NCBI GenBank assembly: GCA_946186205.1
Contig: CAMHMH010000002.1
Location: 1-64,000, forward strand
Length of the DNA stretch: 64,000 nucleotides
Direction of reading: 5' to 3'
From: an uncultured Fretibacterium sp.
GTDB lineage: Bacteria > Synergistota > Synergistia > Synergistales > Aminobacteriaceae
Part shown: positions 1 through 51,044 of the stretch, in pieces
How the letters are laid out: each line of letters starts with the position of its first letter
Position numbering within the stretch: position 1 is the stretch's first letter
Notes under the pieces: generated by a model
What the model was told of the DNA's origin: nothing
What the model saw: only the letters and a program-made list of their open reading frames with translations
Database searches by the model: none
Program-made: the position numbers and the translations under genes

Positions 1-55
1 GGTTCGTGGTTCGTGGTTCGTGGTTCGTGGTTCGTGGTTCGTGGTTCGTGGTTCG
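1..55. repeat. Heptanucleotide tandem array (GGTTCGT)n
   Basis: Seven full copies of GGTTCGT and a six-base partial copy run from the first base of the window, so the array probably continues to the left. The unit has no visible coding use: all three forward frames read through it as the same repeating peptide, which is only a consequence of a unit length not divisible by three. Arrays like this can change copy number by slippage. A second heptamer array of different sequence lies at 10274-10298. Confidence 0.9.
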
Positions 56-121
56 ATTATGGCGGCCATTTTGGGATTTGTCAAGCTCCTTTCTCTGTAT
101 TTATGCGCGATTATATCACAG

Positions 122-160
122 AAAAAAATCCCCCCTGCAGAATTTATACAGGAGGGAAAA
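122..160 (-). terminator. Rho-independent terminator after the small secreted protein
   Basis: On the minus strand an 8-bp stem (CCCTCCTG pairing with CAGGGGGG, one U-G pair) encloses an 11-base loop and is followed by seven U. It lies 26 bases past the stop of the gene at 186-656, so it most likely ends that transcript. Confidence 0.8.
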
Positions 161-185
161 ATTTTGCGGCTTGCTCAGTACTCGT

Positions 186-656
186 TCATTTTCCGAGAGC
201 ATATTTTGCAATCTTGTACATCATTGAACCTTCAAGCGGCCTGAATCCCTTTCGATTCTGAGGGTCTCTGCTCTTGGGAGTGAAGAAGAGAATCTGTTTG
301 CCGGACCTGTCATAATGACGTTCGTATACCTCTTTGAACTGCTTGCCGTCCTCTGTGAACTCGTAGCGGTATTCTGTGAAGTGCAGCCCATTGGCTTTTT
401 CCTCGTCGACTTTGTATCTTGAGATCAGCGTGTTGATTATCTGCTGCCTGATTTTAGTGTTGGTGTAATACTTTCTTGCGACTGCGAAAGGGAGCCCCTT
501 TGAATCTTTGCCGTAATCCATAATGAACCATGCCATTTTGTCTTTATCCTCGCCGAGGTTGGCTACTTTTTTCAAGTCCGCTGCGTCAGACTGTGAACCT
601 GCCGGAAACACGAAAGTAGAACACACAATCATCATCATCAAAAATTTTTTGAGCAT
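186..656 (-). CDS. Small secreted protein of unknown function
   Basis: I do not recognise this 156-residue protein. The first ~25 residues form a Sec-type signal peptide: MLKK, a hydrophobic run and a small-residue stretch before SDAAD. The mature part is charged, rich in Lys, Tyr and Asp, and has no membrane segment, so it is probably periplasmic or exported. The start is well placed, with an AAAGGAG ribosome site 10 bases upstream. It has its own terminator downstream and a 57-base gap from cysE, so it is probably transcribed separately or from read-through of the cys operon. Nothing in the sequence ties it to cysteine metabolism. Confidence 0.75.
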   Translation of the reverse strand: MLKKFLMMMIVCSTFVFPAGSQSDAADLKKVANLGEDKDKMAWFIMDYGKDSKGLPFAVARKYYTNTKIRQQIINTLISRYKVDEEKANGLHFTEYRYEFTEDGKQFKEVYERHYDRSGKQILFFTPKSRDPQNRKGFRPLEGSMMYKIAKYALGK

Positions 657-713
657 AGATTTATGACTCCTTTCTGAGATTTCAGCCTCACAGCAAAATT
701 ATATCAGTCAGCG

Positions 714-1502
714 TTATCTCACTACAACCTGCCCGGCCTCAACCGAATGAGTCAGCCAGACATTTCCGCCGATCACGCAATTGTCCCCGATGACCGTATC
801 ACCTCCCAATATCGTAGCTCCCGCGTAAATCACAACATTATTGCCGATGTCGGGATGCCGCTTTATCCCTTTCACGAGAGTCCCGTCGGGGGCAACGTCA
901 AAACTTTTCGCGCCGATCGTAACATTCTGGTAGATTTTGACTCTCTTGCCGATTGTTGAAGTCTCGCCGATTACGACTCCTGTTCCGTGATCTATGAAGA
1001 AATATTCACCGATTGTCGCACCCGGGTGAATGTCGATTCCCGTGAGCCTGTGAGCATACTCGGTGATTATTCGCGGCACTAATGGCACTCCCATAACGTA
1101 AAGCTCGTGAGCTGTCCTGTATGCGCTTATCGCCGTGAATGCCGGGTAAGAAAGGATAATCTCATCGGGACTCTTTGCTGCCGGGTCGCCCTCATACGCC
1201 GCTGTAATGTCCGTGAGCAATAACCGCTTTATCTCCGGGAGCTTCATAATCAGCATGGCCGTGAATTTCTCACCGTCAGAGTCATTCATTAACCGTGAAA
1301 TTGATGACGCAAGACTCTTTGACGCAAGCCGCAAACTTTCAGCAATGGTTCTCTCTTTGTGGTTGACGTGTGAAGGGAACATTGCCGACTGTATATTAAT
1401 GAACGCGGACTCTATGCTCTCTTTTATCCCGTTGTATGTGATTGTGCCAGCGCGGGACGTGAGACTCTTTTCTGCTGACGCTAAAGCCTCGATGATGTTC
1501 AT
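714..1502 (-). CDS. cysE: Serine O-acetyltransferase
   Basis: Acetylates L-serine with acetyl-CoA to O-acetylserine, the first committed step of cysteine synthesis, in the cytoplasm. The 262 residues comprise an N-terminal helical domain and, from about residue 150, a left-handed beta-helix of hexapeptide repeats. The typical catalytic region is visible: GIDIHPGATIGEYFFIDHG with the His-Asp pair, then VVIGETSTIG and later GAKS and RHPDIGNN. Length fits the long EpsC-type family better than the short CysE. It starts 3 bases after the cysK stop and in the same frame, separated only by a TAG and a Phe codon. It is thus the second gene of a cysK-cysE operon, supplying the substrate of its neighbour. 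Confidence 0.95.
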   Translation of the reverse strand: MNIIEALASAEKSLTSRAGTITYNGIKESIESAFINIQSAMFPSHVNHKERTIAESLRLASKSLASSISRLMNDSDGEKFTAMLIMKLPEIKRLLLTDITAAYEGDPAAKSPDEIILSYPAFTAISAYRTAHELYVMGVPLVPRIITEYAHRLTGIDIHPGATIGEYFFIDHGTGVVIGETSTIGKRVKIYQNVTIGAKSFDVAPDGTLVKGIKRHPDIGNNVVIYAGATILGGDTVIGDNCVIGGNVWLTHSVEAGQVVVR

Positions 1503-1505
1503 GAA

Positions 1506-2438
1506 CTAGTCAGCAAATAATTCTGTCGATAAATATTTCTCGCCTGAGTCAGGAAGTATCACGGCAATATTTTTCCCGGCATTTTCTGAACGTTTTGCGA
1601 CTTCAATCGCGGCATGAAGAGCAGCCCCCGATGAGATTCCCGCGAGGAAGCCCTCAAATTTTCCCGTGAGTCTCGCGGCATTTATTGCGTCTGAGTCATC
1701 AACCGTAATAATCTCGTCATACAGTCTCGTGTTCAGGACTTCAGGAACGAACCCCGCGCCGATGCCCTGTATTTTGTGAGAGCCTTTGCGCCCTGACGAA
1801 AGAACAGGAGACCCGGACGGCTCAACAGCGATAATCTTTATGTCAGGCTTCATTGAGCGGAGATATTCGCCCGAGCCTGTGAGAGTCCCGCCTGTGCCGA
1901 CACCTGATATGAATATGTCGACATTGCCGTTTGTATCCTGCCAGATCTCCGGGCCTGTAGTGAGCCTGTGAATTTTCGGGTTTGACGGGTTCACGAACTG
2001 ACCTGCGATGAATGAGCCGGGAATCTCTGATGCGATCTCTGAGGCTTTCTTGATTGCTCCCATCATGCCTTCGCTGCCTTTCGTCAAAACTAACTCTGCT
2101 CCGTAAGCCTTCATGATCTTGCGGCGTTCGATGGACATTGTTTCGGGCATAACGATAATGACCCGGTAACCGCGAGTTGCTGCGACTGAAGCGAGTCCGA
2201 TGCCTGTATTGCCGCTCGTGGGTTCGATTATGACGCTTGAGGGATTGAGTCTGCCGTCTGATTCTGCGTCATCGAGGATTGATTTTGCGACTCTGTCTTT
2301 TACGCTTCCTGCGGGGTTGAAGTACTCAAGTTTTGCGAGGATTTTTGCGTGAAGCCCGAATTGATTCTGAATCCTCACAAGCTCAAGCAGCGGTGTGTGT
2401 CCGATAAGCTGATCGATAGAAGTATAGACTCCTGACAT
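1506..2438 (-). CDS. cysK: Cysteine synthase (O-acetylserine sulfhydrylase)
   Basis: PLP enzyme that joins O-acetylserine and sulfide to give cysteine and acetate. The 310 residues match the family length. Landmarks in order are the PLP lysine in NPAGSVKDR (about residue 47), the PTSGNTG substrate loop (about 74-80), the phosphate-binding GVGTGGT loop (about 182) and GISSGAA near the C-terminus. An AAAGGAG site precedes the ATG by 9 bases. It is first in an operon with cysE; together they make the two-step pathway from serine, and the proteins often form a complex. It ends in TAG. No T-box or other riboswitch was recognised in the upstream gap. Confidence 0.96.
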   Translation of the reverse strand: MSGVYTSIDQLIGHTPLLELVRIQNQFGLHAKILAKLEYFNPAGSVKDRVAKSILDDAESDGRLNPSSVIIEPTSGNTGIGLASVAATRGYRVIIVMPETMSIERRKIMKAYGAELVLTKGSEGMMGAIKKASEIASEIPGSFIAGQFVNPSNPKIHRLTTGPEIWQDTNGNVDIFISGVGTGGTLTGSGEYLRSMKPDIKIIAVEPSGSPVLSSGRKGSHKIQGIGAGFVPEVLNTRLYDEIITVDDSDAINAARLTGKFEGFLAGISSGAALHAAIEVAKRSENAGKNIAVILPDSGEKYLSTELFAD

Positions 2439-2735
2439 GATACACGACTCCTTTTGTGTTAATGTGATAATGAATTGCCCGGTTAATTCTCAGGCGTTAA
2501 TGAAAAATTTGTGTGTGAAAAATGGATTTCTTGCGCGAAGTTAGAATGTGAAGGGACGACAACAGCACACGGCCTCAAGAATGCTGATAATGATTCTACG
2601 GTTGCGCATACTGTTTCACCTCTTGGGAAATTTATTGCGGGTAATTATGCCACGAAAGAGAATCAGAATCAACGATAGAATTTCAGCCATTGGGATAAAT
2701 TATTGCGGGGAAATTATGAAGTAAGGCATAAAAAA

Positions 2736-2764
2736 CAAGGACAAGAAATTTTCTGTGCTATAAT
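2736..2764 (+). promoter_or_regulatory. Probable promoter of the glycine-zipper operon
   Basis: A perfect TATAAT at 2759-2764 is preceded by TGC, an extended -10 of the TGn type. The -35 side (about 2736-2741) is weak. It is followed by a leader of about 190 bases before the first start codon at 2963. The rest of the 2439-2962 gap holds the upstream region of cysK on the other strand and an imperfect direct repeat (ATTGCGGG-AAATTATG, near 2635 and 2701). I see no further gene in it. Confidence 0.55.
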
Positions 2765-2781
2765 TTGTTTCATCAATTTAT

Positions 2782-2880
2782 GTTTTCAGCACTCAATTAA
2801 TGTGAGCTGAAAATCAGCTTACCGTATCTTGTCCTGCGGTTATTATAGCATAGCGCAAGACGAGTGATTATTATTTGTGT
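2782..2880 (+). promoter_or_regulatory. Structured 5' leader
   Basis: The leader of the glycine-zipper operon contains a perfect 8-bp stem, TTTTCAGC (2782-2789) with GCTGAAAA (2807-2814). A weaker second pairing follows between CTTGTC and the CAAGACGAG region near 2862. It matches no riboswitch or attenuator that I recognise. It could control stability or translation of the small secreted proteins, but this is inference from the long untranslated length and the stems. Confidence 0.35.
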
Positions 2881-2962
2881 GCTTTCGTTTATGCGCCGGG
2901 TAGTTTCTTCGTGAAGTTGGAGCTGTTTGGCGCACCGTTTTGTCTCAAGAAAGGAGGAATTA

Positions 2963-3211
2963 ATGAGAAAGACTGCGTTTGTTGTTATGCTGCTGTTGTT
3001 GTTCGGAATGCTTCAGCCTTCGTTCGCCGGAATGATTCGGAGTAATGAGCGGGAAAATTACGGAGCATTATCGCTGGGATTTCGGGCAATACTCGGAGGC
3101 ATTGCGGGATTTTTAGCGGGCGGTGTTCCGGGTGGTTTAATGGGCGCGGGGTTTATGGTAGTTGTGAGTCCGGGATGTTTTCATGATCCTTTTAGCCCTA
3201 TTGTGTATTAA
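2963..3211 (+). CDS. Small secreted glycine-rich protein 1
   Basis: An 82-residue protein starting at the ATG that follows AAGGAGGAAT; an upstream in-frame ATG at 2927 has no ribosome site. Residues 1-23 form a signal peptide ending in FAG. The remainder has a hydrophobic GxxxG-type segment (AILGGIAGFLAGGVPGGLMGAG). It is first of three consecutive short secreted proteins of similar build (2963-3968), each with a ribosome site and small gaps, hence an operon. Such glycine-zipper segments insert into or pack against membranes. Possible roles are a pore-forming bacteriocin-like peptide or an envelope lipid-binding factor; the sequence does not choose. Confidence 0.65.
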   Translation: MRKTAFVVMLLLLFGMLQPSFAGMIRSNERENYGALSLGFRAILGGIAGFLAGGVPGGLMGAGFMVVVSPGCFHDPFSPIVY

Positions 3212-3229
3212 GTGAAAGGAGAAAATAGC

Positions 3230-3550
3230 GTGAAGAAAATTGCGGTTATGTTGGTTTTATCGCTGGTGCTTGTGTCGGTGTTGCAGGGTGTATCGTCTGC
3301 GAATCTAATTGCACCCGGTGCGATGAGTAGAACTGAAATATGGATACCACTTCCCGGTGGTGGACATCAGAAAACGACAGAGACAATTATAGATCCGTCA
3401 ATAAAGGGCGGAGTCTATGGAGCAGGAGCAGGAGCGGCAACGGGAGCAGTAATCGGGAGCTTTATTCCTGTTGTAGGGACGGCAGTAGGTGCAGGAATCG
3501 GAGCGATTGCAGGAGGTATAGCGGGCTGGATCTGGGGGCCTGCAGATTAA
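3230..3550 (+). CDS. Small secreted glycine-zipper protein 2
   Basis: A 106-residue protein. The GTG at 3230 is chosen because AAAGGAG lies 8 bases before it, whereas the in-frame GTG at 3212 has no ribosome site. The N-terminus is a signal peptide (KKIAVMLVLSLVLVSVLQG, then VSSA). A hydrophilic middle of ~35 residues is followed by a C-terminal glycine zipper of repeated GxxxG, including GAATGAVIGSFIPVVGTAVG. A closely similar zipper lies inside the dynamin-like protein at 32593-34242. There is no immunity-like partner or leader-peptide double glycine, so a class II bacteriocin is possible but unsupported. Confidence 0.65.
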   Translation: MKKIAVMLVLSLVLVSVLQGVSSANLIAPGAMSRTEIWIPLPGGGHQKTTETIIDPSIKGGVYGAGAGAATGAVIGSFIPVVGTAVGAGIGAIAGGIAGWIWGPAD

Positions 3551-3563
3551 GGAGGTAATAATC

Positions 3564-3968
3564 ATGTTGAAGAAGTCAAAAGTTATTGCGTTGCTGGTCG
3601 TTTGCGTCATGATGTTTGCGGTTGTTGAGCCTGCGTTGGCGTGGTGGGGTGAAGATACTGCTTACGGTGGTGCTGTGGGCGGAGCTACTGGCGGACTTTG
3701 CGGAGGACTCGTCTGGGCAGCTTGCGCGACGATTGCTGTTATCGCAAGTGGCGGACTTGCGGCTGTACCGCTTGCGGGGGCTGCGATTGGTGGAGCTGCC
3801 TTGACGGGGGCGACTATTGGCGGTGGTACAGGAGCTGTAGTAGGAGCGGGTATAGGAGCGGCGACTGACAAAAAAACCGTTGATGATGCCGCTAAATTGG
3901 TTTCAGTAGGGATTGAGCGTTCTGACATGAGCGGGAAATCTTTTGACTTAACGTTGTTGAACTCATAA
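3564..3968 (+). CDS. Small secreted glycine-zipper protein 3, with a 3' end overlapping an antisense relic
   Basis: A 134-residue protein 13 bases after the previous gene, with AAGGAGG upstream. It has a signal peptide ending ALA, a WWGED start to the mature chain, then about 75 residues of dense Gly/Ala zipper (GGATGGLCGG, GAAIGGAALTGATIGGGTGA). The last ~30 residues change character to hydrophilic. That stretch is encoded by DNA whose opposite strand reads as the first ~35 codons of an ADP-ribosylglycohydrolase. The tail was therefore probably acquired when a rearrangement joined this gene to the relic. The original C-terminus of the protein is unknown. Confidence 0.6.
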   Translation: MLKKSKVIALLVVCVMMFAVVEPALAWWGEDTAYGGAVGGATGGLCGGLVWAACATIAVIASGGLAAVPLAGAAIGGAALTGATIGGGTGAVVGAGIGAATDKKTVDDAAKLVSVGIERSDMSGKSFDLTLLNS

Positions 3969-4009
3969 ACGCTTCCGATAATGTCTCCGATTAATGCGCC
4001 GGGAATCAT
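3890..4009 (-). pseudogene. 5' fragment of an ADP-ribosylglycohydrolase gene
   Basis: Read on the minus strand, the ATG at 4009 opens MIPGALIGDIIGSVYEF, then NNVKSKDFPL and SERS. This is the characteristic N-terminus of DraG/ARH-type ADP-ribosylglycohydrolases, which remove ADP-ribose from proteins. Homology fades after ~35 codons, and the frame then reads as the complement of the glycine-zipper gene. The start lies 2 bases after the helicase stop, so the gene was once the next member of the helicase operon. Only the beginning survives; the metal-binding and catalytic Asp residues of the family are absent. Confidence in homology is good, while the exact junction (about 3865-3895) is a guess. 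Confidence 0.7.
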
Positions 4010-4011
4010 TA

Positions 4012-7000
4012 TTATTCACCTTCCTGTTGATTTATTCCGAGAAGTGTATCTACATTGCTGTCATGGCCTAGAAAATATTCTTCTATTATTTCCCAGCGTT
4101 CTTTGTCCGTGAAATTTTTGCTCATGAAATTCTGCATTATCTTCACTGCGCGTTTGTGTTTGGCTTCAATGTCAGAAAGCACAGCGTTCCTGTATGATGT
4201 GCTGGCTGCTATATCAAGGAGCTTGCTGGGATCAGTTACAGTGATGGATATTTGAAGGTTTCTGCCGCCTGTAATTTCGTATGATGCTAAACCGAAAAGC
4301 TGAAGTATTGATGCCATTAGCTGCTGAGGCGGTGATGATGTATCGCATTGGGATTCATAGCTTTTAGGGCGTGCGGGCATTGGCTGAGGCATTGGAAGAT
4401 AAACTGTATATTTCTCTGTGACTCTGTATTTGCTGTTAGGTTCTGCCATGCTGAAATAGCTCCGAAGTTTGCTGCCTATGCCGGCGTACTTGTCCCCGCG
4501 TATGCAGTATTTTTCCTCGAAATTGCCGCTGTCGGTGTCCGGCTTTATGCGCTCGATGAATTTCCATGACTCTGTAGGCTGCCTGTATGACGCTCCGAAG
4601 CTGAAATCTACATGATCATAGCAGAAAAGATCCAGTACCATCCTGATATATTCGCGCCTTCCCTCAAGCCTGTACCTTTTGCTGAAAATCCCGTAAAAAT
4701 CACTGAAGCTGAAATGTTTTCTGCCGAAATTCCTGAATAAGTCATTGAATGAATCCTGAATTGCTTCCGACACTTTTTTGAACAGGACGCTTACTTTATG
4801 CCAGCCCTTTTCGTATGTGATTGTCATTTTCATGTTGGGCACTATTCTGTAACATTCGCCCTGCCCTTTATCAGTTTCAGGGAATAATTCACCGCTGAGA
4901 AATTTGAACTTGAACTGCTGAAAGCTGAGGCCGATAAATTTATTCTCCCACAATTTTGCAAGGTCAATCTCAAAAACTTTTCCGTTCTTTATTATGCTTC
5001 CTCCGGCTGACTTGCGCGGATAACAGTCATTAACTTTCTTGCAGTAAGAGCCGTATTCATCAAGAAATTTCATCTCAATTTCGTGCGGCACTAAAATATA
5101 CTGCACAGAGAAAAGGCTTCTTGGTCTCACGCTTAACAACCTGAAATGAGATTTTGCGTTAAGGTCAGCACTTAGCATAAGAAGCCCGCTTTTTACGCTG
5201 TTTTCGAGCTGGTAATCACTGAAAAGGTAGCTGAAAGTTTCAGGAGAGAACAAAATATTTCTTCCTTCAGAGTGCGTGCAAATATCGTAGAGCTTTTTTG
5301 CCATTTCCTTAAGCTGGTAATGCTTCAGTCCCGAAAGCCCCCATAACATTTGTACATACTGCATATCGGAAATCATATAGTCAGCAACAGCGCAGCCCTC
5401 TTTGAGATTTCTCGCAGCCCTTCCTATTTCCTGAACGTAATCCGCAAGAGTTCCTGTAGGCGAAAAGTGATATACGTTCCTTATGTCCCCGATATTAACG
5501 CCCATTCCGAAAGCCTTTGTCGCAAGCATTACAGTAGAGCGCGAACACCTGAAATTTTCGTAGGCTGTATCTTTGTCCGTACCATTCATGCCGCCGTAAT
5601 ATGTTTCGGTCTTTGCTCCCTCTTCAAATTTCTGAAGCACTTCGTTAATCATTCCTATCTGACGGACAAACGGAAAATACATTATCGTTTTCTGTTTTTC
5701 CCTCACATACTTTACTGCGGCCGCAACAGCAAGAGTTGTCTTTGCTTCCTTTTTTGACCTTGATTTTTTCTCGTGATGCCTTATGTCAAACTTGATATTT
5801 CCGCGCCTGACATACCCGATGTATATATGCCCTGTGTAGCACGCAAGATGAAGGCTCTGCTGAAGATCCCCAACGACATCATCACGCCCGCCGTAAACAG
5901 CAGTGGCAGTAAGGCAAAGCACCGGGAATTTCTGAGGCTTTGAATCCGAGCGTGGGCTTTCTCTGCGAACATTCTCGATGTAATCTCCGAGAAACCAATA
6001 ATCAGCCCGGAAATCTCTTCCCCATGACGTTACAAGATGCGCTTCATCAATCACAACAAGCCCTATGTCCCTTCCTCCTGTGAGAGTTCGTATATCCCCT
6101 CCGAGAAGGAACTCAGGCGAAAGATAAACAACAGAGTAACGCCCGCTTATGATTCCGTTGAGCCTTGATTTTCGCTCCTCAGATGTTATTGACGCATTAA
6201 TATATGTAGCGTAGTCAATTCCGCGTTCATGAAGCTCATTCACCTAATCATACATAAGCGACACAAGAGGGCATATAATTATCGTGAGAAGCGGTTTCTC
6301 TTCTTCCTCATGAAGATATATCGCGGGTATCTGGAAAAATATTGATTTCCCTGAACCTGTAGGAGCTGTAACTATTATGTCTGAATAATTTTCACCTGAA
6401 GCGGCTTTCATGCTCTGCTCTATAACGTCAGATATTATTCTGCCCTGTGAGAGAGTCATTGTCCTGTTGTTTTCCGCAGGAGATTCATAAAACATAAGCT
6501 CCCTGAATGATGCTTCGCTGCCCCAGTATTTCTTGAGCATGTGAAGATATTGCTCCCCGCTGTCATTCTTTTTTGTGCAGTGTGAAGCCTTGAACTTTGT
6601 CCCGAAGAATCTGCCAAGCGTATTCATCTTTGTGATCTCAGCGTCAATAGAGTCATCGCCGTCGTCCTGAATGATGAAGCATGAATTTTTCAGTTCACCG
6701 TTCATGAGCTTTACTTTGATTTCCGAAAGAGGCAGAGAAGAAATTGTACCTTCATCATCTGAAGCAGAATCGATTCCGTCCGCTGGAAGAATGCCGGCCA
6801 TGTCCCAGAAAAATCCTGTCTCATTAATATTATGCTCTGTATGCCTGTCTATGAATGACACGAAAAGAATATTGCCATCAGTCCGACAGTCTGAATAATA
6901 ATCCAGTAGCTTCAAATCTGAATCATTAACAGCTTTTTTCCCGCTGTCATTTCTGAAAAGCTCTGAGATTTTTTCAGGGGACATGCTTTCAGGAAGAGGA

Positions 7001-7347
7001 TAATAATCACTGAACAGATCATTTTTGATTACGGTCATTGTTCCTTTGTAGACATTGAAATTTTTTAGCAACATGCTTAATGCTTGAAACTCTTCATAGA
7101 AACACCACGCCTGCCCCTTTGAAGTTATCAGGAACGGGAGAATTTCTGATCCGTCAAGTTTCAGCGCGTCAGGATATGAGCCGTCCCATTCTCCTGCGAG
7201 GTGAGGAATGTCCAGAGCCTTTAAGAAACTGACAGGGAAGCCCTGAAATATATACAGGTGATTATCATTTCCGCTTAAAACAGTATTGCGCTCTAAGAAT
7301 TTTTGAACGCATGAAGAGAAAATTTGAATGCTGTCAGACAATCGCAT
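4012..7347 (-). pseudogene. RecQ-like DEAH helicase interrupted by an in-frame amber codon
   Basis: One continuous frame of ~1111 codons is broken by a single TAG at 6244-6246. Upstream half: a ~320-residue unrecognised N-terminal region, then Walker A APTGSGKS (about 328-335) and PLVSLMYD. Downstream half: VNELHERGID continues directly, then the DEAH box in VVIDEAHLVTSWGRDF, motif III LTATA, and motifs V/VI GMGVNIG and QEIGRAAR. RecQ proteins read SLMxDQV at this place, so TAG most simply replaces CAG (Gln). The ~400-residue C-terminal part is unlike housekeeping RecQ. AGGAGG sits only 2 bases before the ATG but 8 before a TTG two codons on, so the true start may be 7341. Next to the ADP-ribosylglycohydrolase relic it looks like the remains of an accessory, possibly defence, operon. 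Sequencing error is the main alternative. Confidence 0.8.
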
Positions 7348-7532
7348 GTCCTCCTGAAATAATATTTTGGATTTGTATATAATATCACACAGAAAATTTT
7401 GTCTGCCCGTCTTAAAGAGATTTTTTCACAACCAGTAAAATTATGTTTGCAATATAAATTTCTTGTGAATAAAATTATCACGTTCAATCACAATTCATTC
7501 ACCAAAAATTTCATATGTCAGGAGCGTTAATT

Positions 7533-8411
7533 ATGCAGATTGATATTAACAGCAGACTTATCGCACTTATCGGCACGCCTCTGAGTCAGTCATTCGCCGC
7601 AAGAATGCAGAACTCAGCGTATCAGGCGGCAGGCTTCAACATGGTCTATTGCTACTGTGAGGCAGACAGCACCCACCTCAAGGAAATTATTGACGGCATA
7701 CGCTACATGCCCACGTTCTTGGGTTGCGCCGTAACAAAGCCCAACAAAGAAGCCGTTATGCAGTACCTTGATGACCTTGATCCCCTCTGCAAGAAAATCG
7801 GAAGCTCAAACACCGTCGTCAAAACTGAGGGCGGGAAACTCATCGGCTACAACACTGACGGCTACGGAGCACTGCGCGACATCAAAGAGCACGGCTGTGT
7901 CATCAAAGACAAAGTTATGTTCTCATTCGGCGCGGGCGGAACTGGCAGGAGCGTTTGCCTTGAGCTTGCCAACGAGGGAGCAAAGAAGATATACATCTCT
8001 TCACGCTCGGAGAAATGCGAGACACTCAGCGAGGAAATCAACAAGTTCTACCCCGGAGTCTGCGTACCTGTAAGAGCAGCTGACGAAGCCGGAATCAAGA
8101 AGGCACTCGATGAGACAGATATTATCCTTAACCTTTCGGGACTCGGCATGAAGGGCAAAGAGGAATATACATGCGTCGACAAAAAATTCCTCAAGCCGTC
8201 GCACATTTGCTTTGACGCGACATATAACCCCGCAACGACTCGTTTCCTCAAGGAAGCCGCTGAAGTCGGATGCACAACCATCAACGGACTCGGAATGTCA
8301 TTGTATCAGGGACTCCGTCAGATTCAGTTGTGGACGGGCGGTCAGGCTGTGCCTCTTGAAGTAATGCGCCAGACCCTTGAGACAATCATGAAGGAAAAAG
8401 AAGGAAAGTAA
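7533..8411 (+). CDS. Shikimate-dehydrogenase-like oxidoreductase
   Basis: A 292-residue NAD(P)-dependent enzyme of the AroE/YdiB fold. ATG 7533 is preferred over 7515 because CAGGAG precedes it by 9 bases. Conserved parts are the catalytic Lys in AVTKPNKE, SSNTVV, the catalytic Asp in YNTDGYGAL and the Rossmann loop FGAGGTGRS. Changes in the substrate pocket stand out. The usual HSxSPxxHN reads QSFAARMQN, with the second Ser lost, and GANVT reads GCAVT. This suggests a substrate other than shikimate, as in quinate or amino-shikimate dehydrogenase branches of the family. It is followed by a TIM-barrel protein, a lyase and a TRAP transporter, so it more likely serves catabolism than aromatic amino acid synthesis. 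Confidence 0.85.
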   Translation: MQIDINSRLIALIGTPLSQSFAARMQNSAYQAAGFNMVYCYCEADSTHLKEIIDGIRYMPTFLGCAVTKPNKEAVMQYLDDLDPLCKKIGSSNTVVKTEGGKLIGYNTDGYGALRDIKEHGCVIKDKVMFSFGAGGTGRSVCLELANEGAKKIYISSRSEKCETLSEEINKFYPGVCVPVRAADEAGIKKALDETDIILNLSGLGMKGKEEYTCVDKKFLKPSHICFDATYNPATTRFLKEAAEVGCTTINGLGMSLYQGLRQIQLWTGGQAVPLEVMRQTLETIMKEKEGK

Positions 8412-8425
8412 CAAGAGAATAACGC

Positions 8426-8457
8426 CGCCGCTATCACACGGGCGGTTTGTTTGTTCA
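8426..8457 (+). terminator. Weak terminator or attenuator between aroE-like gene and TIM-barrel gene
   Basis: A CCGCC/GGCGG stem with an 11-base loop is followed by TTTGTTTGTTC. The T tract is interrupted, so it may reduce rather than stop transcription into the downstream genes. Confidence 0.4.
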
Positions 8458-8485
8458 TTTCACGAAAGGAGAATGAGTTTCACAA

Positions 8486-9334
8486 ATGGCACGTAAATTT
8501 TCGTTAGCTTATCTCACAATCCCCGGCACCAATCCGATGGATCAGATCAAAATCGCAAAAGAAGCAGGCTATGACTATGTGAGTCTCCGCACGATTCCTA
8601 TGCACCTTCCCGGTGAGCCTTCATTCCTTCCGCAGGATGACCCGAAACTTTTTGCCGACATCAAAGCAGCCCTCAAAGAATACGACATGCCGTTAATGGA
8701 CATTGAGCTTGCGCGAATCCGCAAAGACCTCGACATTAACGAGTACAAGCCCGCGTTCGAGGCAGCCGCGAAATTAGGCGCAACGGACGTACTCGGCTCA
8801 GTGTGGACACGCGACCGCAAATGGTACACAGAGACAGCCGGAAAAGTCGCGGACATGGCAAAAGAGTTCGGACTCATGTTCAACATTGAGTTCCTTCCTT
8901 GGGCAGGTGTCAGAAACCTTCAGGAAGATATTTCCCTCATCGATGACCTTTACAGGGATAACGTCTTTGTGATGGTCGACACGCTTCACGCAGGCAGGGC
9001 AGGCGTAACAGGCTCAGAGCTTGCGAGGACTCCGAGAAAGTATTTCCGCTTCATTCACCTTTGCGACGGCCCGGCACCAGAGAACGCAGAGTGCAAAGAC
9101 ACAGTGCTTGACAACATCAAAGATGATCTCATGCTCTACACTGCGCGCGAGGCAAGATTCTATGTCGGTGAAGGTGATGTGAAAATCGCTGACATGATAA
9201 AAGCAATGCCGAATATCCCGCTGTCGATTGAGCTTCCCAACCTCAAAGAGATTCAAGCGCGGGGAGTCGCCGGCCATGCGAAACAGTGCCTCGAGACCGC
9301 AAAGAAATATTTTGCCGAGAACGGTATCGACTGA
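8486..9334 (+). CDS. Xylose-isomerase-like TIM-barrel protein (sugar epimerase / AP endonuclease 2 superfamily)
   Basis: A 282-residue cytoplasmic protein with the periodic beta-alpha pattern of the sugar phosphate isomerase/epimerase superfamily. AGDYVSLR-type and MDIELARI strands are visible (here GYDYVSLRT), followed by NIEFLPWAG, VMVDTLHAGRAG and FIHLCDGPAP. These carry the metal-binding Glu, Asp and His residues expected at barrel strand ends. The family includes epimerases, inosose and 3-dehydroshikimate dehydratases. Because it lies between a shikimate-dehydrogenase-like enzyme and a lyase, a dehydratase or isomerase acting on a cyclic polyol acid is attractive, but this is inference. 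Ribosome site GAAAGGAG upstream. Its stop TGA overlaps the next start by one base. Confidence 0.8.
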   Translation: MARKFSLAYLTIPGTNPMDQIKIAKEAGYDYVSLRTIPMHLPGEPSFLPQDDPKLFADIKAALKEYDMPLMDIELARIRKDLDINEYKPAFEAAAKLGATDVLGSVWTRDRKWYTETAGKVADMAKEFGLMFNIEFLPWAGVRNLQEDISLIDDLYRDNVFVMVDTLHAGRAGVTGSELARTPRKYFRFIHLCDGPAPENAECKDTVLDNIKDDLMLYTAREARFYVGEGDVKIADMIKAMPNIPLSIELPNLKEIQARGVAGHAKQCLETAKKYFAENGID

Positions 9335-10263
9335 TGATGAACTTGCCCGAAAAAGTAACAATGTGTGAAGTCGGTCTGCGCGACGGAGTCCAGAATGAGA
9401 AAGTTTACCCCAACACAGACCAGAAAATAGAAATCCTGCGTGGCTTCATTGACGCGGGCTATAAGGTTATCGAGGTCGGCTCATTCATGCACCCCAAGAG
9501 AGTCCCTCAGATGGCTGACACTGATGAAATCTTCAAGCGTATAGGCGAGATTCCCGGAGATGTAGAACTGCGCGCGCTCATTCCCAACACACGCGGAGTA
9601 CAGCGGGCTATCGATTGCGGCTGCAAGAAGGTAAAGCTCAATGTTTCCGCCAGCCGTATGCACAACCTCAAGAATCTTAACAGGACTCCAGAGGAGAGCG
9701 TTGCGGGTTTTGCTGACTGCGTGAAGATGGCGAACGAGAATCACATAGCTATATCCGGCTCAATCTCAATGCCTTATGCTTCACCTTGGGAAGGAAGGAC
9801 TCCCGTTGAAGATGTTGACGCGATAATAGAGGCGTATTTGAAGGTCGGAATTGATGAGATTTCGTTGTCTGACGCTTCAGGGCAGGCAGTCCCGAATCAG
9901 GTCTACGATCTCTGCAAGCATGTCCGTGAAAAATATCCGCAGGCTTCATGGTGGCTTCACTTCCACAACACACGCGGCGCGGCAATGGCTAACATACTCG
10001 CGGCAATGCAGGCGGGAATGACTCGCTTTGATGCTTCATTCGGCGGTCTTGGCGGATGTCCTTTCGTCCCCGGCGCGGCTGGCAATATCTCATCAGAGGA
10101 CGTAATCAATATGCTTGATGAGATGGGAATCACAACGGGCGTTGACGTTCTGAAGGTTATGGAAATGTCCCGGAAGATTCGCGAAATTGTCGGCCATGAT
10201 TTAGACAGCTACGTGTTAAGGGCAGGACGCTCGAAGGATCTAATCGCTTCACAGTCAGAGTAA
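9334..10263 (+). CDS. HMG-CoA-lyase-like aldolase (HMGL family)
   Basis: A 309-residue TIM-barrel lyase of the DRE metallolyase group. The signature EVGLRDGVQNE (about residues 11-21) holds the catalytic Arg-Asp pair, HFHNTRG holds the metal-binding His residues, and GGCPFVPGAAGNISSED holds the catalytic Cys loop of 3-hydroxy-3-methylglutaryl-CoA lyases. Such enzymes cleave a 3-hydroxy-3-methylacyl compound to acetyl-CoA or pyruvate and a carbonyl product. The start ATG shares a base with the preceding TGA, indicating coupled translation; a second ATG follows immediately. The exact substrate cannot be read; its context with the TRAP uptake genes implies cleavage of an imported carboxylate. 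Confidence 0.88.
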   Translation: MMNLPEKVTMCEVGLRDGVQNEKVYPNTDQKIEILRGFIDAGYKVIEVGSFMHPKRVPQMADTDEIFKRIGEIPGDVELRALIPNTRGVQRAIDCGCKKVKLNVSASRMHNLKNLNRTPEESVAGFADCVKMANENHIAISGSISMPYASPWEGRTPVEDVDAIIEAYLKVGIDEISLSDASGQAVPNQVYDLCKHVREKYPQASWWLHFHNTRGAAMANILAAMQAGMTRFDASFGGLGGCPFVPGAAGNISSEDVINMLDEMGITTGVDVLKVMEMSRKIREIVGHDLDSYVLRAGRSKDLIASQSE

Positions 10264-10273
10264 AGGCTAGGGG

Positions 10274-10298
10274 ACAGGGTACAGGATACAGGGTACAG
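10274..10298. repeat. Heptanucleotide array (ACAGGGT/ACAGGAT)
   Basis: Three heptamer units and a partial fourth (ACAGGGT, ACAGGAT, ACAGGGT, ACAG) lie just after the lyase stop. They are followed at 10304-10320 by CTACCCCTTGTCCCT, which can pair back with AGGGGACAGGG at 10269. The 97-base gap to dctQ thus holds a slippage-prone array inside a possible hairpin. Confidence 0.7.
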
Positions 10299-10360
10299 CT
10301 ATTCCCTACCCCTTGTCCCTAATCCCTTAATCACTATAAACACAAGGAGGAATATTCTAC

Positions 10361-10933
10361 ATGTTCAAATGGCTTGATGAGCATTTCGAAGAGTGCTTAA
10401 TGGTCATATTTCTGATACTGATTGCATGTGTCATGATGCTTCAGGTTATCGTCAGAAAGATTCCGTTTTTGCCGTCGCTTACATGGGCTGAGGAGTTCTC
10501 GCGCTTCATGTGGATAATGAGCGTATTTATCTCCCTTCCCTACACAGTCAGAAAAGCAAACATGCTCCGCGTAAATGTCGTAATTGACCTTCTTCCCGAA
10601 AAACTCCGCAAGGTCATTAATCTTTGTGTCGACGTTATCGTGGGTGTGTGCATGGCTCTTCTTGCGTATCACTGCATAGAGTGCCTCAGATGGTCAGCGG
10701 GTGAAATGCTTGAAGGCGCGAAGGCTGAGACTTCCCCGGCTATGAACTGGCCGATGTGGTGGCTGTACGCGGTCGGGCTTTTCGGGTTCTGCCTGGCGAC
10801 TCTCAGGGCGGTTCAGATGTTCTTTATCCATCTCAGCAAGTTTAACGAGAGGGAGCTTACGACTCTTGAGCAGACACAGCTTGACGCAAAGGCCGAACTT
10901 GAAGCGGCAGCAAAAGCAGAGGGGGCGAAGTAA
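10361..10933 (+). CDS. dctQ: TRAP transporter small permease (DctQ type)
   Basis: A 190-residue inner-membrane protein with four hydrophobic segments (about residues 13-32, 47-65, 87-107 and 127-146), standard for DctQ subunits. WAEEFSRFMWIW-type sequence in the second segment (here WAEEFSRFMWIM) is a family hallmark. It pairs with the large permease downstream to drive Na+-coupled uptake of an organic acid. Strong AAGGAGG site. The C-terminal ~25 residues are an Ala/Glu/Lys-rich cytoplasmic tail. The heptamer array upstream separates it from the enzyme genes, yet the gap is short and the same operon is likely. Confidence 0.93.
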   Translation: MFKWLDEHFEECLMVIFLILIACVMMLQVIVRKIPFLPSLTWAEEFSRFMWIMSVFISLPYTVRKANMLRVNVVIDLLPEKLRKVINLCVDVIVGVCMALLAYHCIECLRWSAGEMLEGAKAETSPAMNWPMWWLYAVGLFGFCLATLRAVQMFFIHLSKFNERELTTLEQTQLDAKAELEAAAKAEGAK

Positions 10934-10936
10934 TCA

Positions 10937-12238
10937 ATGGCGGCGTTACTCGTATTCGTAGTATTTCTCGTAGCAATAGTACTCTCGATACCCATCGGAG
11001 TAAGCATGATTCTCGGCTCAGTCGCACCCATTCTCATGATGGGCAGAGGCGGAGTCATTCCTCAGATTGTCGACAACACATTATCCGGCGCAAACTCAAC
11101 ACCGATTCTTGCGGTTCCCCTGTTCATTCTCGGCGGAGTCATCATGGCCGAGGGCGGAATCTCAAAGAAGCTCTTCAACTTCTTCTCGTACTTTGTCGGA
11201 CGCTTCACGGGCGGAGTTCCCTGCGCTGTAGTTTTGACGTGCCTGTTCTACGGCGCAATTTCGGGTTCAGGCCCTGCAACAACGGCGGCTGTCGGCGCGA
11301 TGTGCATTCCGTTCATGGTTGACTTAGGCTACAACAAGACATGGGCGGCAGGACTTATCGCAGTCGCGGGCGGACTCGGAGTCATAATTCCCCCGTCGAT
11401 TCCTTTCGTCCTTTACTCACTCGCAACAGGAGTCTCAACCGGCAAATTATTCTTAGGCGGAGTCTTCCCCGGAATTTTAATCGGATTGTTCCTCATGGCC
11501 TATGCGGTTTTCTACTGCGCTACGAACAAAGACAACAAAGCGGAGATTAACGAGAAGACTCAGAAAAGGCTTGACGAGATCAGCGCGAACGGATTCATGC
11601 CCCTCCTGAAGGATTCATTCTGGGCGTTGCTATGTCCGTTAATCATTCTCGGCGGTATCTATTCGGGATTCTTCACACCGACTGAAGCGGCTGTTGTCTC
11701 AGTCTTCTACGCAATAATAGTATGTCTCTTCATTGAGCGCACAATAAAATTCTCTGCTCTTCCTGCGTTCCTCATCAGCTCGGTGAAAACTTACGGCGGA
11801 CTCGCGTTCATTCTCGCATTCGCAACGGCATTCGGGCGCGTATTGTCTCTCACACATGCAACGTCAGCAGTGCAGGATTTCATTCTGAACAACTTCCACA
11901 GCGACATAGCAGTCCTCAGCGTATGCACGATTATATTCTTGATACTCGGCATGATTATGGACACTGGCCCGGCGATTATCATTCTCGCTCCCGTTCTCCT
12001 TCCTGCTGTGAAAATGCTCGGTGTTAATGAGGTGCATTTCGGTGTTGTCCTCGTGTGCTGCCTGTCGATAGGACTTGCGACTCCTCCGTTCGGACTCGAT
12101 TTGTTCGTTGCCGGAAATATTTCGCAGGATCAGCCGATGGATGTCGCAAAGAGGGCTTTCCCGTTCATCGTGGCATTCTTGATCTCATTGGCGTTGATTG
12201 TCTATATCCCGTCAATAAGCACGTGGCTTGCATATTAG
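10937..12238 (+). CDS. dctM: TRAP transporter large permease (DctM type)
   Basis: A 433-residue polytopic membrane protein, 3 bases after dctQ, with about 12 hydrophobic segments. Family landmarks are SGSGPATTAAVGAM and AGLIAVAGGLGVIIPPSIP near residue 115-160, and FFTPTEAAVVSVFYA and GMIMDTGPAIIILAPVLLP later. It forms the transport channel with DctQ. The stop TAG is inside the ribosome-binding sequence of the next gene (TAGGAGGG), so translation is coupled to dctP. Confidence 0.95.
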   Translation: MAALLVFVVFLVAIVLSIPIGVSMILGSVAPILMMGRGGVIPQIVDNTLSGANSTPILAVPLFILGGVIMAEGGISKKLFNFFSYFVGRFTGGVPCAVVLTCLFYGAISGSGPATTAAVGAMCIPFMVDLGYNKTWAAGLIAVAGGLGVIIPPSIPFVLYSLATGVSTGKLFLGGVFPGILIGLFLMAYAVFYCATNKDNKAEINEKTQKRLDEISANGFMPLLKDSFWALLCPLIILGGIYSGFFTPTEAAVVSVFYAIIVCLFIERTIKFSALPAFLISSVKTYGGLAFILAFATAFGRVLSLTHATSAVQDFILNNFHSDIAVLSVCTIIFLILGMIMDTGPAIIILAPVLLPAVKMLGVNEVHFGVVLVCCLSIGLATPPFGLDLFVAGNISQDQPMDVAKRAFPFIVAFLISLALIVYIPSISTWLAY

Positions 12239-12250
12239 GAGGGTAAAACT

Positions 12251-13354
12251 ATGAGAAAATTTATCATTGCCCTTATGGTTGTTCTTGCGCTCGGCTCGTG
12301 TGCTTTCGGAGCGTCGGAATTTGATGAAGTATGGCTTGTTACCGCCGACACAACAGCAAAGGGCGCGGCAGGCCAGGTATTTGCGCAGCTCATTCAGTCA
12401 AAAGTTAAGGCAGCAAACGCGGGACTCGTGATTGACTATTTCCCTAACGGCGAATTAGGCGGGGACGCTGATTTGCTCCGTCAGGCTCAGAAGGGATATA
12501 TAGCAATCACAGTATGCCAGACAGCCCCGATAGTGTCATTCATTCCCGAGATGGCAGTGTTCGATTTGCCGATGGTTTTCGCGAGATACGACGGCGATAC
12601 GATCGACAAAGTTTTGAACGGCGACTCGGAGTTTCACCGCAAAATGTCAGCAGCTTACGAAAAGGCCGGGCTTCACCTTCTCGGCTTCATGCAGAACGCA
12701 ACGTACAGACTCGCGACGGCCAATAAAGACCTTGAGACTCTGACGGACTTCACCGGGCTTCAGATAAGAACGATGGAGAACAAGAATCACATGGACTTTT
12801 GGACGGCAATCGGCGCGGAACCTACACCGCTTGCATGGGGCGAGCTTTACTTCTCACTTCAGAGCGGAACGGTAAACGCTCAGGAGAACGCCGCAGACAC
12901 ATGCGTGGGCGCGCACTTTGAGGAAGTACAGAAATTCCTCGCCTGCACGAATCACATACTCTACTGCAACCAGATCTGCATCAACGACAAAATCTATAAG
13001 GCACTCAAGCCCGAACACAGAGCAGTCCTCGACAAGGCAGTAGCTGAAGCGTTGCAGGAAATGCGCCCGAAACTTGAGGAGATCGACAAGAGCAACAAGG
13101 CAATCCTCGTAAAAGGCGGAATGAAGATGATTGAGTACGATAATTCATTCTTCAGCGATGTGCTTGCGGTTCAGGGAGTGAAGGATCTGTACAAGAGAAT
13201 CGATACAGCTACGAACGGACTCGCCTCGACGCTTGAGAAGAGTCTTGAAGAAGTAGCAGAAGCCTCAAAGCCCAAACCCGCAACAGCTATCGATGACGCT
13301 CAGAAGAAAGCACCGTCCCAGAGTGAAACACCCGCTCCCGTTCCCGCTGAGTAA
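12251..13354 (+). CDS. dctP: TRAP transporter periplasmic solute-binding protein (DctP type)
   Basis: 367 residues with a signal peptide ending CAFGA-S. The body is the DctP fold: DYFPNGELGGDADLLRQAQKG, then FTGLQIRTMENK with the conserved Arg that binds the substrate carboxylate, and GTVNAQENAADTC. It captures the substrate in the periplasm for DctQM. The last ~35 residues are an unusual Pro/Ala/Lys tail (KPKPATA, PAPVPAE) after the normal end of the fold, probably disordered. The neighbouring enzymes suggest a carboxylate, perhaps a cyclic hydroxy acid. A terminator follows at 13464. Confidence 0.93.
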   Translation: MRKFIIALMVVLALGSCAFGASEFDEVWLVTADTTAKGAAGQVFAQLIQSKVKAANAGLVIDYFPNGELGGDADLLRQAQKGYIAITVCQTAPIVSFIPEMAVFDLPMVFARYDGDTIDKVLNGDSEFHRKMSAAYEKAGLHLLGFMQNATYRLATANKDLETLTDFTGLQIRTMENKNHMDFWTAIGAEPTPLAWGELYFSLQSGTVNAQENAADTCVGAHFEEVQKFLACTNHILYCNQICINDKIYKALKPEHRAVLDKAVAEALQEMRPKLEEIDKSNKAILVKGGMKMIEYDNSFFSDVLAVQGVKDLYKRIDTATNGLASTLEKSLEEVAEASKPKPATAIDDAQKKAPSQSETPAPVPAE

Positions 13355-48025: not shown

Positions 48026-48989
48026 AGATATGACCTCAGTGCGTCATGACAGATTGTCGAGGGTGATGGCGTTCCTTCAGTCGAAAGTGAGAGCGACTCA
48101 TGACGAAATATTCTCAGCTGGCGAATACAGAAGCAACAGGACGCTTCAGAATGATCTGTATTATCTCAGGGGTATATACGGAGCTGATATACGCTACGAC
48201 ATTCACAGCAAGTTATACGTAATGGAGAGTGCCGGAATATTTCACTTGAACCTGCGAATAACCGAGAGCGAAATTACAGCTTTGAGCGCGGGCTTGAACA
48301 TGGCCGTACATTTCCTGCCACACCTGAAAGACTCTGCACGCTCACTCTTTGAGAAGCTCGGAAACTATATGCCCGGTGAAATTCTGTCGCTAGGTTCAGA
48401 GATAACGCGATCGACTCTCAATGCTATACCAGTCGCGGAAGTTGACGCAAAAATTTTCGGGACTCTCGTTGAGGCAAAACGCTCGCAGAAAGCCGTGAAC
48501 ATTCTTTACTCATCGCCGGGGAAAATGCCAAAGCACTGGACGTTATCACCGTATGATTTTTACTTCAGGGGCAATGCGTGGTACATGGCCTCGTACAATC
48601 ACAAGCATGACACTCTCAGCATTCACAGAATCAGCCGGATAATAAGCGCGTCAATAAGTGATGAAGGGTATGTGAAGCCTGAAGACGGAGGATTCACGGA
48701 GGACTATACATTGTCGGCGTGGCATGTTATCCCGGGACATGAAAAAATTCCCGTGAAGGTCAGAATCTCAGAGCCATTAGCGCAGACGTTCCGCGAGGTG
48801 AAGTGGCATCCGTCGCAGAAGGTTGAAGAGTGCGAAGAAGGAGGCGTGATATTGTCAGCGGAAGTTCCGAATCTCTATGAGTTCGCGAGGTGGGTAATGT
48901 CTGGCGCGCCTCATGTGATCGTGATTGAGCCTGAAGAGCTGAAAGAGATCGTGAAGGGATTCGCTGAGGAAATATTGAACGGTTTATGA
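48018..48989 (+). CDS. WYL-domain transcriptional regulator
   Basis: 323 residues; ATG 48018 overlaps the previous stop by 8 bases and follows AAAGG by about 10. N-terminal winged-helix DNA-binding domain (RLSRVMAFLQSKVRATHDEI, RTLQNDLYYLR), then the WYL domain with HWTLSPYDFYFRGNAWYMASYN and HRISRI, the positions that bind nucleotide or nucleic-acid ligands. A C-terminal WCX-like extension ends the chain. WYL regulators often control defence loci and keep them silent until infection. In this operon it may act on the FtsZ-like and nuclease genes. Confidence 0.88.
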   Translation: MPKDMTSVRHDRLSRVMAFLQSKVRATHDEIFSAGEYRSNRTLQNDLYYLRGIYGADIRYDIHSKLYVMESAGIFHLNLRITESEITALSAGLNMAVHFLPHLKDSARSLFEKLGNYMPGEILSLGSEITRSTLNAIPVAEVDAKIFGTLVEAKRSQKAVNILYSSPGKMPKHWTLSPYDFYFRGNAWYMASYNHKHDTLSIHRISRIISASISDEGYVKPEDGGFTEDYTLSAWHVIPGHEKIPVKVRISEPLAQTFREVKWHPSQKVEECEEGGVILSAEVPNLYEFARWVMSGAPHVIVIEPEELKEIVKGFAEEILNGL

Positions 48990-49035
48990 TATTAAAGTTT
49001 TCAAAAAAAATATATACATGAAAGGAGAAAATCAT

Positions 49036-50103: not shown

Positions 50104-50160
50104 TAACAAAAATTGCCCTCAGCTTTTATGCCGGGGGCGTTATGATACCTGCTGTGCTCA

Positions 50161-50808
50161 TTAATCAGTCAGCTTGAGTCCCAAGTCTATTAATCTCTGC
50201 GAATATGGCATGAAAAAGTCAGCAACGAACCCGACCAGGAAAGCGCATATTATCGTGCCTGTTCCGAATTTGCCGCCCATAATGAAGCCCGCAAGAACAA
50301 ATATACTGTCCGTTATCACTCTCGTAAGCCCGAAATTGAAATGACACTTTTCACTTATCACAACAGCGACTAAATCATTCGGCCCGGTTCCTGCTTCTGA
50401 CCTTATTACGATTGTCATACCGAAAGCAAGAATTACACAGCCGAGAATCAAAACAGGAATCTTAATCACCAATCCCGCGCTTTCTATCTCAAGACCCTCA
50501 AGCAGCCACATGAAGAAATCTATTATCGGGCCTCCGCAGAACATACATATAACCGTTCCCGCTTTGATGTAGCTTCTGTCTGTAGCAAGCAGGACAAGTA
50601 TTATCATGAAGGAGACGCACATGTGAATTATACCGTGCGTCAGGTTGAAGCCGCTCATTAAATGATTAAGTCCCTGAACGAAAACGTTGAAAGGATCTGC
50701 GCCGAGATTCGCGAGAAGGAACAGAGTAACACCAAGATGCGCAACCGTTAGTCCGCAGAAAAGAAACACGAGCCGCAAAAATTCCTGCTTCATCTTCATG
50801 GCCGTCAT
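50161..50808 (-). CDS. YczE/YitT-like membrane protein
   Basis: 215 residues, about five to six hydrophobic helices. GADPFNVFVQGLNHL and TGPNDLVAVVIS (family pattern GxxPxxxL) recur in two halves, as in the YczE group of integral membrane proteins. The function of the family is not settled; some members are linked to export of peptides. Three in-frame ATGs near the start (50808, 50799, 50793) cannot be separated. It is convergent with the Mrr-like gene. The 262-base stretch to the right holds the RND terminator and nothing else I can name. Confidence 0.75.
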   Translation of the reverse strand: MTAMKMKQEFLRLVFLFCGLTVAHLGVTLFLLANLGADPFNVFVQGLNHLMSGFNLTHGIIHMCVSFMIILVLLATDRSYIKAGTVICMFCGGPIIDFFMWLLEGLEIESAGLVIKIPVLILGCVILAFGMTIVIRSEAGTGPNDLVAVVISEKCHFNFGLTRVITDSIFVLAGFIMGGKFGTGTIICAFLVGFVADFFMPYSQRLIDLGLKLTD

Positions 50809-51007
50809 GACTCCAAGTATGCAATATCTTCCGTGCTGAGGGGATTATTTGCCGCATTGATATTCATTCGTAAACGTTCTGCCGATGTTGTGCTGACTAC
50901 CGCAAAAATATTCATCTCATCATCTCCAAAATATTATGTCGCGGCTTTGGGGAGACTTTCATTATATCAGCCGCATAAAATATTCTCCCTTGTATTAATA
51001 CAGCAGC

Positions 51008-51044
51008 AAAAAAAATCCCTCTCCCGTAATTTTCAGGAAAGGGA
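51008..51044 (-). terminator. Terminator of the RND efflux operon
   Basis: Minus-strand stem TCCCTTTCC / GGGAGAGGGA with a ~10-base loop, then eight T. Confidence 0.8.

Follow-up and report, generated by a model that had tools for sequence, protein, structure and literature searches.

What would a rumen bacterium gain from three consecutive, tiny, secreted glycine-zipper proteins expressed behind one promoter? The question is raised by positions 2963-3968 of a 64,000-nt stretch of DNA (hereafter the window, meaning that whole stretch), which is the start of contig C2 (CAMHMH010000002.1) in the 2.75-Mb genome of an uncultured Fretibacterium sp. (assembly GCA_946186205.1) and which carries there the genes here termed orf1, orf2 and orf3 (Table 1). 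Our preferred answer, held tentatively and at a probability of roughly 45%, is that the three proteins are cargo-free members of a family of Sec-exported glycine-zipper effectors directed against competitors, and that their operon is tuned by a promoter and a small RNA (sRNA) within a repeated leader module. Judged from sequence, the proteins are probably secreted glycine-zipper effectors of a new variant form, and more of what is novel at the locus lies in the module. Below, G numbers denote genomes and L numbers loci.

By inspection, the N-terminus of each protein runs from basic residues through a hydrophobic core to an AxA-type cleavage site (between SFA and G in orf1, SSA and N in orf2, and ALA and W in orf3), and no lipobox is present in any of them. 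The mature parts are Gly/Ala-rich and hydrophobic, all with 19-residue windows of mean hydropathy >1.2, and they contain 5, 9 and 11 GxxxG motifs in orf1, orf2 and orf3, respectively. A purine-rich ribosome-binding site (RBS) precedes each gene, and the ratio of nonsynonymous to synonymous substitution rates (dN/dS) is 0.40-0.59 for orf1 and orf2 against full-length relatives in G043 and G030 and 0.28 for orf3 against G040; the three open reading frames (ORFs) are thus taken to encode proteins, with a constraint that is weak to moderate. The original prediction, made from the letters of the DNA alone, had therefore placed real genes at the right coordinates and on the right strand, and the signal peptides that it assigned to them are there. 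It was also right in substance that one promoter and leader serve all three, the promoter being an extended -10 element. Its GxxxG-rich hydrophobic regions are borne out for orf2 (P = 0.003) and orf3 (P = 0.002) when motifs are counted against composition-preserving shuffles, with orf1 marginal (P = 0.058), and the little sequence identity that it noted applies to the mature parts but not to the signal peptides, which resemble each other.

The evidence that carries the effector interpretation comes from relatives that end in nucleases. Beside prs in the same genome, a leader of the same type as that of the window operon is followed by family members of 98 and 341 amino acids (aa), the longer of which (L015:9411-10436) has a C-terminus matching Endonuclea_NS_2 (E = 5.4e-26), and the 327-aa member at the prs site of G045 has a Colicin-DNase domain (E = 1.2e-13) and a WHH domain (E = 2.6e-10) at its C-terminus. 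In 90-column windows, the DNA of L015 9380-9740 is 91-100% identical to that of G045 through the signal peptide and the first part of the zipper; beyond 9740, identity falls to 94% in the window that follows and to 67% across a transition, and then stays at 30-57% through C-terminal parts that are unrelated. As this alignment reads, the C-terminal part at the prs site is exchanged on a constant N-terminus. Moreover, a WHH-like C-terminus lies behind the module in G058, as read from the sequence of a record interrupted by an N-run. Next to prs in G030, an ORF pair (L034 509-1332) resembles an antitoxin and a GNAT toxin, and in the Fretibacterium genome a 58-aa piece (L015 10525-10701, minus strand) resembles the first ORF of that pair, both being named by eye.

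In the genomes searched, the family hardly occurs outside a single genus of rumen Synergistaceae. When 180 genomes of the order were searched with a profile of signal peptide plus zipper (A4), 19 gave a match, 18 from the same genus as the window and 1 from outside it; orf3 relatives were found in 15 of 81 family genomes, strong orf2-type matches in 6 of 80 and orf1-type matches in 4 of 80. The order orf1-orf2-orf3-like is also present in two more species, represented by G043 and G030, so that the synteny proposed as a check holds. G043 shares 78% DNA identity with the window from the leader through the orf3 signal peptide and then no match, the mature part of its third gene being unrelated to that of orf3, and the G030 locus shares 67%. 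L045 sets an orf3-type signal peptide ahead of an orf2-type mature part, and G044 has three consecutive signal-peptide genes, two of them orf2-type. These sequences point to signal peptides that are common to the family members and to mature parts that are exchanged or recombined. What survives of the proposed multi-peptide membrane-active set is therefore a Sec-exported glycine-zipper family, probably membrane-active and with DNase-tipped members, and what falls is a fixed three-part set, given the few genomes with orf1-type (4 of 80) or strong orf2-type (6 of 80) genes, the varying third mature part and an orf3 that is probably truncated. No homologue proved to be just a piece of some larger envelope protein already known, although orf3 has longer, nuclease-tipped relatives.

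Other zipper-bearing or secreted genes were noted along the way. At L138 (1501-2909), L129, L130 and L142, glycine-zipper ORFs lie immediately upstream of a reverse-transcriptase ORF, which matches RVT_1 (E = 1.2e-37 in L138) and the RT and Cas1_IIIb models of PADLOC; L138 also has CRISPR-like repeats close by. L020 (1919-2872), L131 and L132 encode secreted proteins with DWIW ends, in tandem pairs in L020 and L131, and those of L020 and L132 come after a flagellar flhB-like gene.

The leader is a genus-wide, multi-copy module with a probable sRNA. Over 138 bases, the intergenic region ahead of orf1 and that of the prs operon share 82% identity, more than the 42-46% between the proteins. A model of the leader (R1) matched 26 of 81 genomes of the family, all in the same genus; a model of the core (R2) matched 30 of 178 genomes of the order, one being a weak match outside the family; and a third model (R3) matched 36 of the 42 genomes searched within the genus and none of the 38 searched in the rest of the family, with one match in the window and up to 32 module matches per genome. 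The forward promoter (Pfwd), about 200 nt ahead of orf1, faces a reverse promoter (Prev), and each is an extended -10 element of sequence TGCTATAAT. An exact TGNTATAAT extended -10 was present for Pfwd at 75 and for Prev at 68 of 79 sites, counts that are not independent since the models contain this core. A sigma-70 consensus scan that required a -35 element did not list Pfwd, and the promoter-like sites that it did return were at chance level. The 79 sites, which are part of all model matches, comprise the 59 of analysis A9 (39 R1 and 20 R2 matches) and 20 chosen among the R3 matches listed. A5 excluded L084 and L109, two of the 43 R1 matches in A3; the arm test and the sRNA set excluded L040 as well, and A9 excluded L087, whose extracted stretch had been truncated.

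The candidate sRNA, of about 100 nt, would be read from Prev on the minus strand, with a closing stem (P1) that pairs 2828-2834 with 2739-2745 and a U-tract opposite the A-run at 2730-2735. Across 59 sequences, 97.2% of cells in stems P1 and P3 are paired, versus 91.9% in shuffled and 32-54% in slid controls. Doubly compensated cells number 39 versus 9.6 expected, a value reached in 0 of 500 shuffles, although this covariation is inflated, because sequences are counted instead of independent events and relatedness among the sites is common. A T-run lies within 16 nt past P1 in 56 of the 59, and 39 pairs are valid on the minus strand only versus 11 on the plus strand only, most of the 39 at one pair. 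Because of the U-run and this wobble asymmetry, a minus-strand RNA is favored, and a leader acting as plus-strand RNA only was dropped. Folded as a single sequence, the plus-strand leader is unremarkable (z = -1.44), and folding energies barely discriminate the strands, the minus strand being lower in 35 of 59. The arms around the ATTATA of Prev pair better than permuted partners (-15.3 versus -12.2 kcal/mol, 0 of 5000), an observation not used for the sRNA claim. A known riboswitch or other known RNA was rejected for lack of an Rfam 15 match at gathering score in the window and 20 related loci, and a permissive Rfam search of 2700-3000 gave chance-level hits alone. An invertible, phase-variable promoter between the GGACAAG/CTTGTCC arms was likewise dropped, no reversed promoter being found among 46 loci (L084 is rearranged). 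At the prs site of G030, short repeats stand in place of the reverse half, and the forward promoter is retained. A literature search on Synergistaceae, pilin and small RNA together found no paper in the library searched.

The genes behind the module are often those of pilins. At the 79 sites, the module heads a type IV prepilin gene in 37 cases, a gene with a signal-peptide-like or membrane-type start in 20 and another ORF in 16; 4 sites have no gene, and 2 (L249 and L257) are at contig ends. In the Fretibacterium genome, with an assembly duplicate on contig C10 excluded here as in all site counts, 14 of the 20 module sites head prepilins; the remaining six comprise those of the window operon and the prs operon and four more. 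The 14 are separate single prepilin genes (L170-L173, L175-L182, L184 and L185), and at extra sites in G030, G060, G049 and G036 a prepilin is headed at 17 of 18 evaluable sites. At L101, L104, L107 and L110 the module heads radical-SAM-like genes, named by eye, and at L101 and L104 a tiny Cys-bearing ORF precedes them, which by eye gives operons of the type that make ribosomally synthesized and post-translationally modified peptides (RiPPs). At the cysK-aroE site of G045 (L033 1801-2376, minus strand), a TerD gene (E = 1.5e-84) comes first behind the leader, with an orf3-type gene after it.

It is conceivable, although on balance doubtful, that all this amounts to a new kind of repeated expression module, in which an extended -10 faces its own sRNA gene, similar sRNAs cross-regulate sites, and homology in leader and signal peptide serves to swap cassettes. 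Such a module would head prepilins, leucine-rich-repeat and other surface proteins, RiPP-type radical-SAM operons, and glycine-zipper or nuclease cassettes. Cross-regulation would let the cell choose among many pilins and weapons, and the swapping of cassettes would be akin to the way in which transcription of the pilE sRNA promotes gonococcal pilin variation. If so, an uncultured rumen lineage would run its pilin, surface and competition genes from a shared, so-far-unlisted RNA and promoter element, and there would be a handle on the choice among over a dozen prepilin genes in one bacterium.

For the proteins themselves, the effector reading proposes that Sec exports them and that a GxxxG helical hairpin, predicted in orf2 at residues 58-78 and 83-102 in a model with a predicted local distance difference test (pLDDT) score of just 58.6, inserts into a membrane. 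In longer members, the signal peptide and glycine-zipper region would carry an exchangeable C-terminal nuclease. The family would serve antagonism toward nearby bacteria, the hairpin either permeabilizing the membrane alone or carrying the nuclease across; orf1 and orf2 would act through permeabilization, and orf3 would be a truncated relative. That bare forms permeabilize and tipped forms deliver is suggested by analogy with Tde1 and the Caulobacter glycine-zipper proteins. Pfwd would drive the operon against the convergent promoter of an antisense sRNA (2841 to ~2730), and since ~70 nt of 5' sequence would be common to the two opposing transcripts, the sRNA or colliding transcription may tune the operon together with module-bearing pilin genes. 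Were this correct, the same zipper would occur alone and as a carrier of exchangeable nucleases within one genus, and the zipper as a translocation device and its bare form as a weapon would both be directly testable.

Several points weigh against this effector reading. No immunity-type gene lies beside the nuclease of the Fretibacterium genome or of G045, where the gap to the next gene is ~320 bp (with only a 58-aa opposite-strand ORF) and ~100 bp, respectively; no exporter beyond Sec is linked, and a diderm would need an outer-membrane step. The GxxxG count of orf1 is just marginally above chance, the structure models are poor (pLDDT 43.4 for the nuclease paralogue and 58.6 for orf2), and the stem covariation is inflated as noted. 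Similarity to known glycine-zipper families is below curated cut-offs: orf2 reaches 23.5 bits both with Gly-zipper_YMGG (PF13441; E = 4.6e-5, cut-off 28.9) and with Gly-zipper_Omp (PF13488; E = 5.2e-5, cut-off 25). Finally, cargo-free members could be envelope proteins that have no antagonistic role.

This last thought is the alternative that survives best, although we consider it rather unlikely: small glycine-zipper proteins of the periplasm or outer membrane, SlyB- or YMGG-like, would stabilize lipids or membrane complexes as envelope house-keeping. The two families just named and YiaD_Gzip_OmpA of NCBIfam (E = 6.9e-4) are the best matches of orf2, there is no immunity gene, and the control module is common to pilins and other surface proteins, all of which would suit such a role. 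Yet every one of these matches is under its curated cut-off, the patchy presence of the genes (6/80 genomes for strong orf2-type and 4/80 for orf1-type) and their fast turnover are unlike house-keeping, and their paralogues have nuclease toxin domains. Whole orf1 and orf3 match neither Gly-zipper_YMGG nor Gly-zipper_Omp and gave nothing notable in Pfam, NCBIfam, PADLOC or PHROGs. The PHROG matches of orf2 are zipper-like segments of long proteins, several being tail proteins; a phage or viral origin was rejected, since tblastn of orf2 against phages gave no hit and the viral contigs contained no relative. Matches to solved structures (a nucleoside permease, hemolysin BL and a pilin) were weak and judged to be low-complexity similarity.

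It is less probable still that the three genes are remnants, the leftover N-terminal modules of nuclease-tipped effectors that have lost their toxin ends and are disappearing. The end of orf3 is what recommends this idea. Homology of orf3 to its G040 relative stops at 3908, and an antisense remnant of an ADP-ribosylglycohydrolase gene (3921-4015) overlaps the end of orf3, its opposite strand encoding the final residues, so that these are taken as junction sequence and orf3 is probably truncated; the PF03747 match behind that name, on the L084 fragment, is under the curated cut-off (E = 0.00081). The G040 relative likewise reads on into low-complexity sequence, and relatives elsewhere have full nuclease ends. 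Set against this, orf1 and orf2 have conserved ends (PIVY and GPAD, respectively), full-length relatives in the same order in other species, and the dN/dS values given above.

Table 1. Coordinates in the window of the operon, its leader module and the adjoining gene remnant
Feature	Position	Strand	Description
Candidate sRNA gene, ~100 nt	2719..2841	-	R3 match
Pfwd, forward extended -10 promoter	2756..2764	+	TGCTATAAT; predicted start ~2771
Conserved 5' leader to RBS	2825..2957	+	R1 match
Prev, reverse extended -10 promoter of the candidate sRNA	2842..2850	-	TGCTATAAT
GC-rich leader hairpin, attenuator-like	2892..2934	+	TGCGCC...GGCGCA; missing from short leaders
orf1	2963..3211	+	82 aa, ATG start; Sec signal peptide and GxxxG hydrophobic segment; C-terminal PIVY conserved
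orf2	3230..3550	+	106 aa, GTG start; Sec signal peptide, linker, predicted Gly-zipper helical hairpin, GWIWGPAD end
orf3	3564..3968	+	134 aa, ATG start; Sec signal peptide and Gly-zipper region; homology to G040 relative until 3908
ADP-ribosylglycohydrolase gene, 5' remnant	3921..4015	-	78% identity to the 5' end of the L084 (G035) gene

The operon has no further ORF, and its neighbors are cysK- and cysE-like genes upstream, as read from translations, and a helicase gene on the opposite strand downstream; as had been predicted, no immunity or export gene adjoins it. The helicase gene (4012-7347, minus strand) has its reading frame split by an in-frame TAG at 6244-6246, and its best PADLOC match is C3a193, "poss. 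alt. Cas3". The contig begins inside a short tandem repeat (window 1-60) whose translations repeat VRGSWFV. Contig C10 (68.9 kb) of the same genome is 100% identical to C2 at window positions 1-12874 and 48874-64000 and 99.85% identical from C2 position 60000 to 68873; this comparison covered ~37 kb, at both contig ends, and a real duplication was rejected in favor of what is most likely an assembly duplicate.

How, then, does the locus compare with known systems? Very improbably, it encodes a genuine contact-dependent bacteriocin of two or three peptides on the model of CdzC/CdzD, with immunity and export genes elsewhere, as the size and zipper content (PMC5380434) and a tandem orf1-orf2 order kept in three species, this one included, might suggest, but the signal peptides are of the Sec rather than the RTX-like type, and neither type I secretion genes nor a gene for an immunity protein with three transmembrane segments is adjacent. 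In that report, CdzC and CdzD of Caulobacter are glycine-zipper proteins of 86 and 84 aa that kill by contact, have RTX-like signals, and depend on the type I secretion system CdzAB and the immunity protein CdzI. Adjacent, tiny, exported GxxxG-zipper proteins are thus found on both sides, a likeness drawn from descriptions of size and zipper rather than from direct sequence comparison. Since genes like those for CdzI and CdzAB do not adjoin orf1-orf3, we do not regard them as a Cdz system. Two-peptide (class II) bacteriocins differ in their double-glycine leader and ATP-binding cassette (ABC) exporter, in place of which orf1-orf3 have Sec-type AxA signal peptides, and PF10439 gave just 13.8 bits (E = 0.059, cut-off 27.1).

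The nuclease-tipped paralogues L015:9411-10436 and L046:1501-2484 resemble Tde1, a DNase of the type VI secretion system (T6SS), in joining a glycine-zipper N-terminus to a C-terminal DNase; in the Tde1 report (PMC10240207), the zipper is required for membrane permeabilization and delivery. Tde1 is described there as T6SS cargo with the adaptor Tap1, whereas the paralogues have a Sec signal peptide before the zipper and no adjacent T6SS gene, and the window genes, unlike Tde1, have no nuclease. The prs-site paralogues, but not the window genes, also recall polymorphic toxin systems in their constant N-terminus and swapped C-terminal nucleases. An adjacent immunity gene is given as a key distinguishing feature of those systems in PMC3482391; because none lies beside the Fretibacterium or G045 nuclease, the family is not filed under them in that strict definition, and the window genes have no toxin domain.

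For the module, the nearest known arrangement is the G4-associated sRNA of gonococcal pilE, which, according to PMC3547852, is located ahead of the pilin gene, points the other way and is required for the pilin to vary. An opposite-orientation sRNA promoter upstream of a pilin gene is common to both, but the module has no repeated G-runs in 2719-2850 and thus no G-quadruplex start, and it is multi-copy, has a structured candidate RNA with a terminator that is convergent with an extended -10, and heads non-pilin genes too. PilR, the antisense RNA of pilA11 in Synechocystis (PMC5924778), similarly ties an antisense RNA to prepilin genes; in the module, the candidate RNA instead lies upstream, inside an element that is repeated around the genome.
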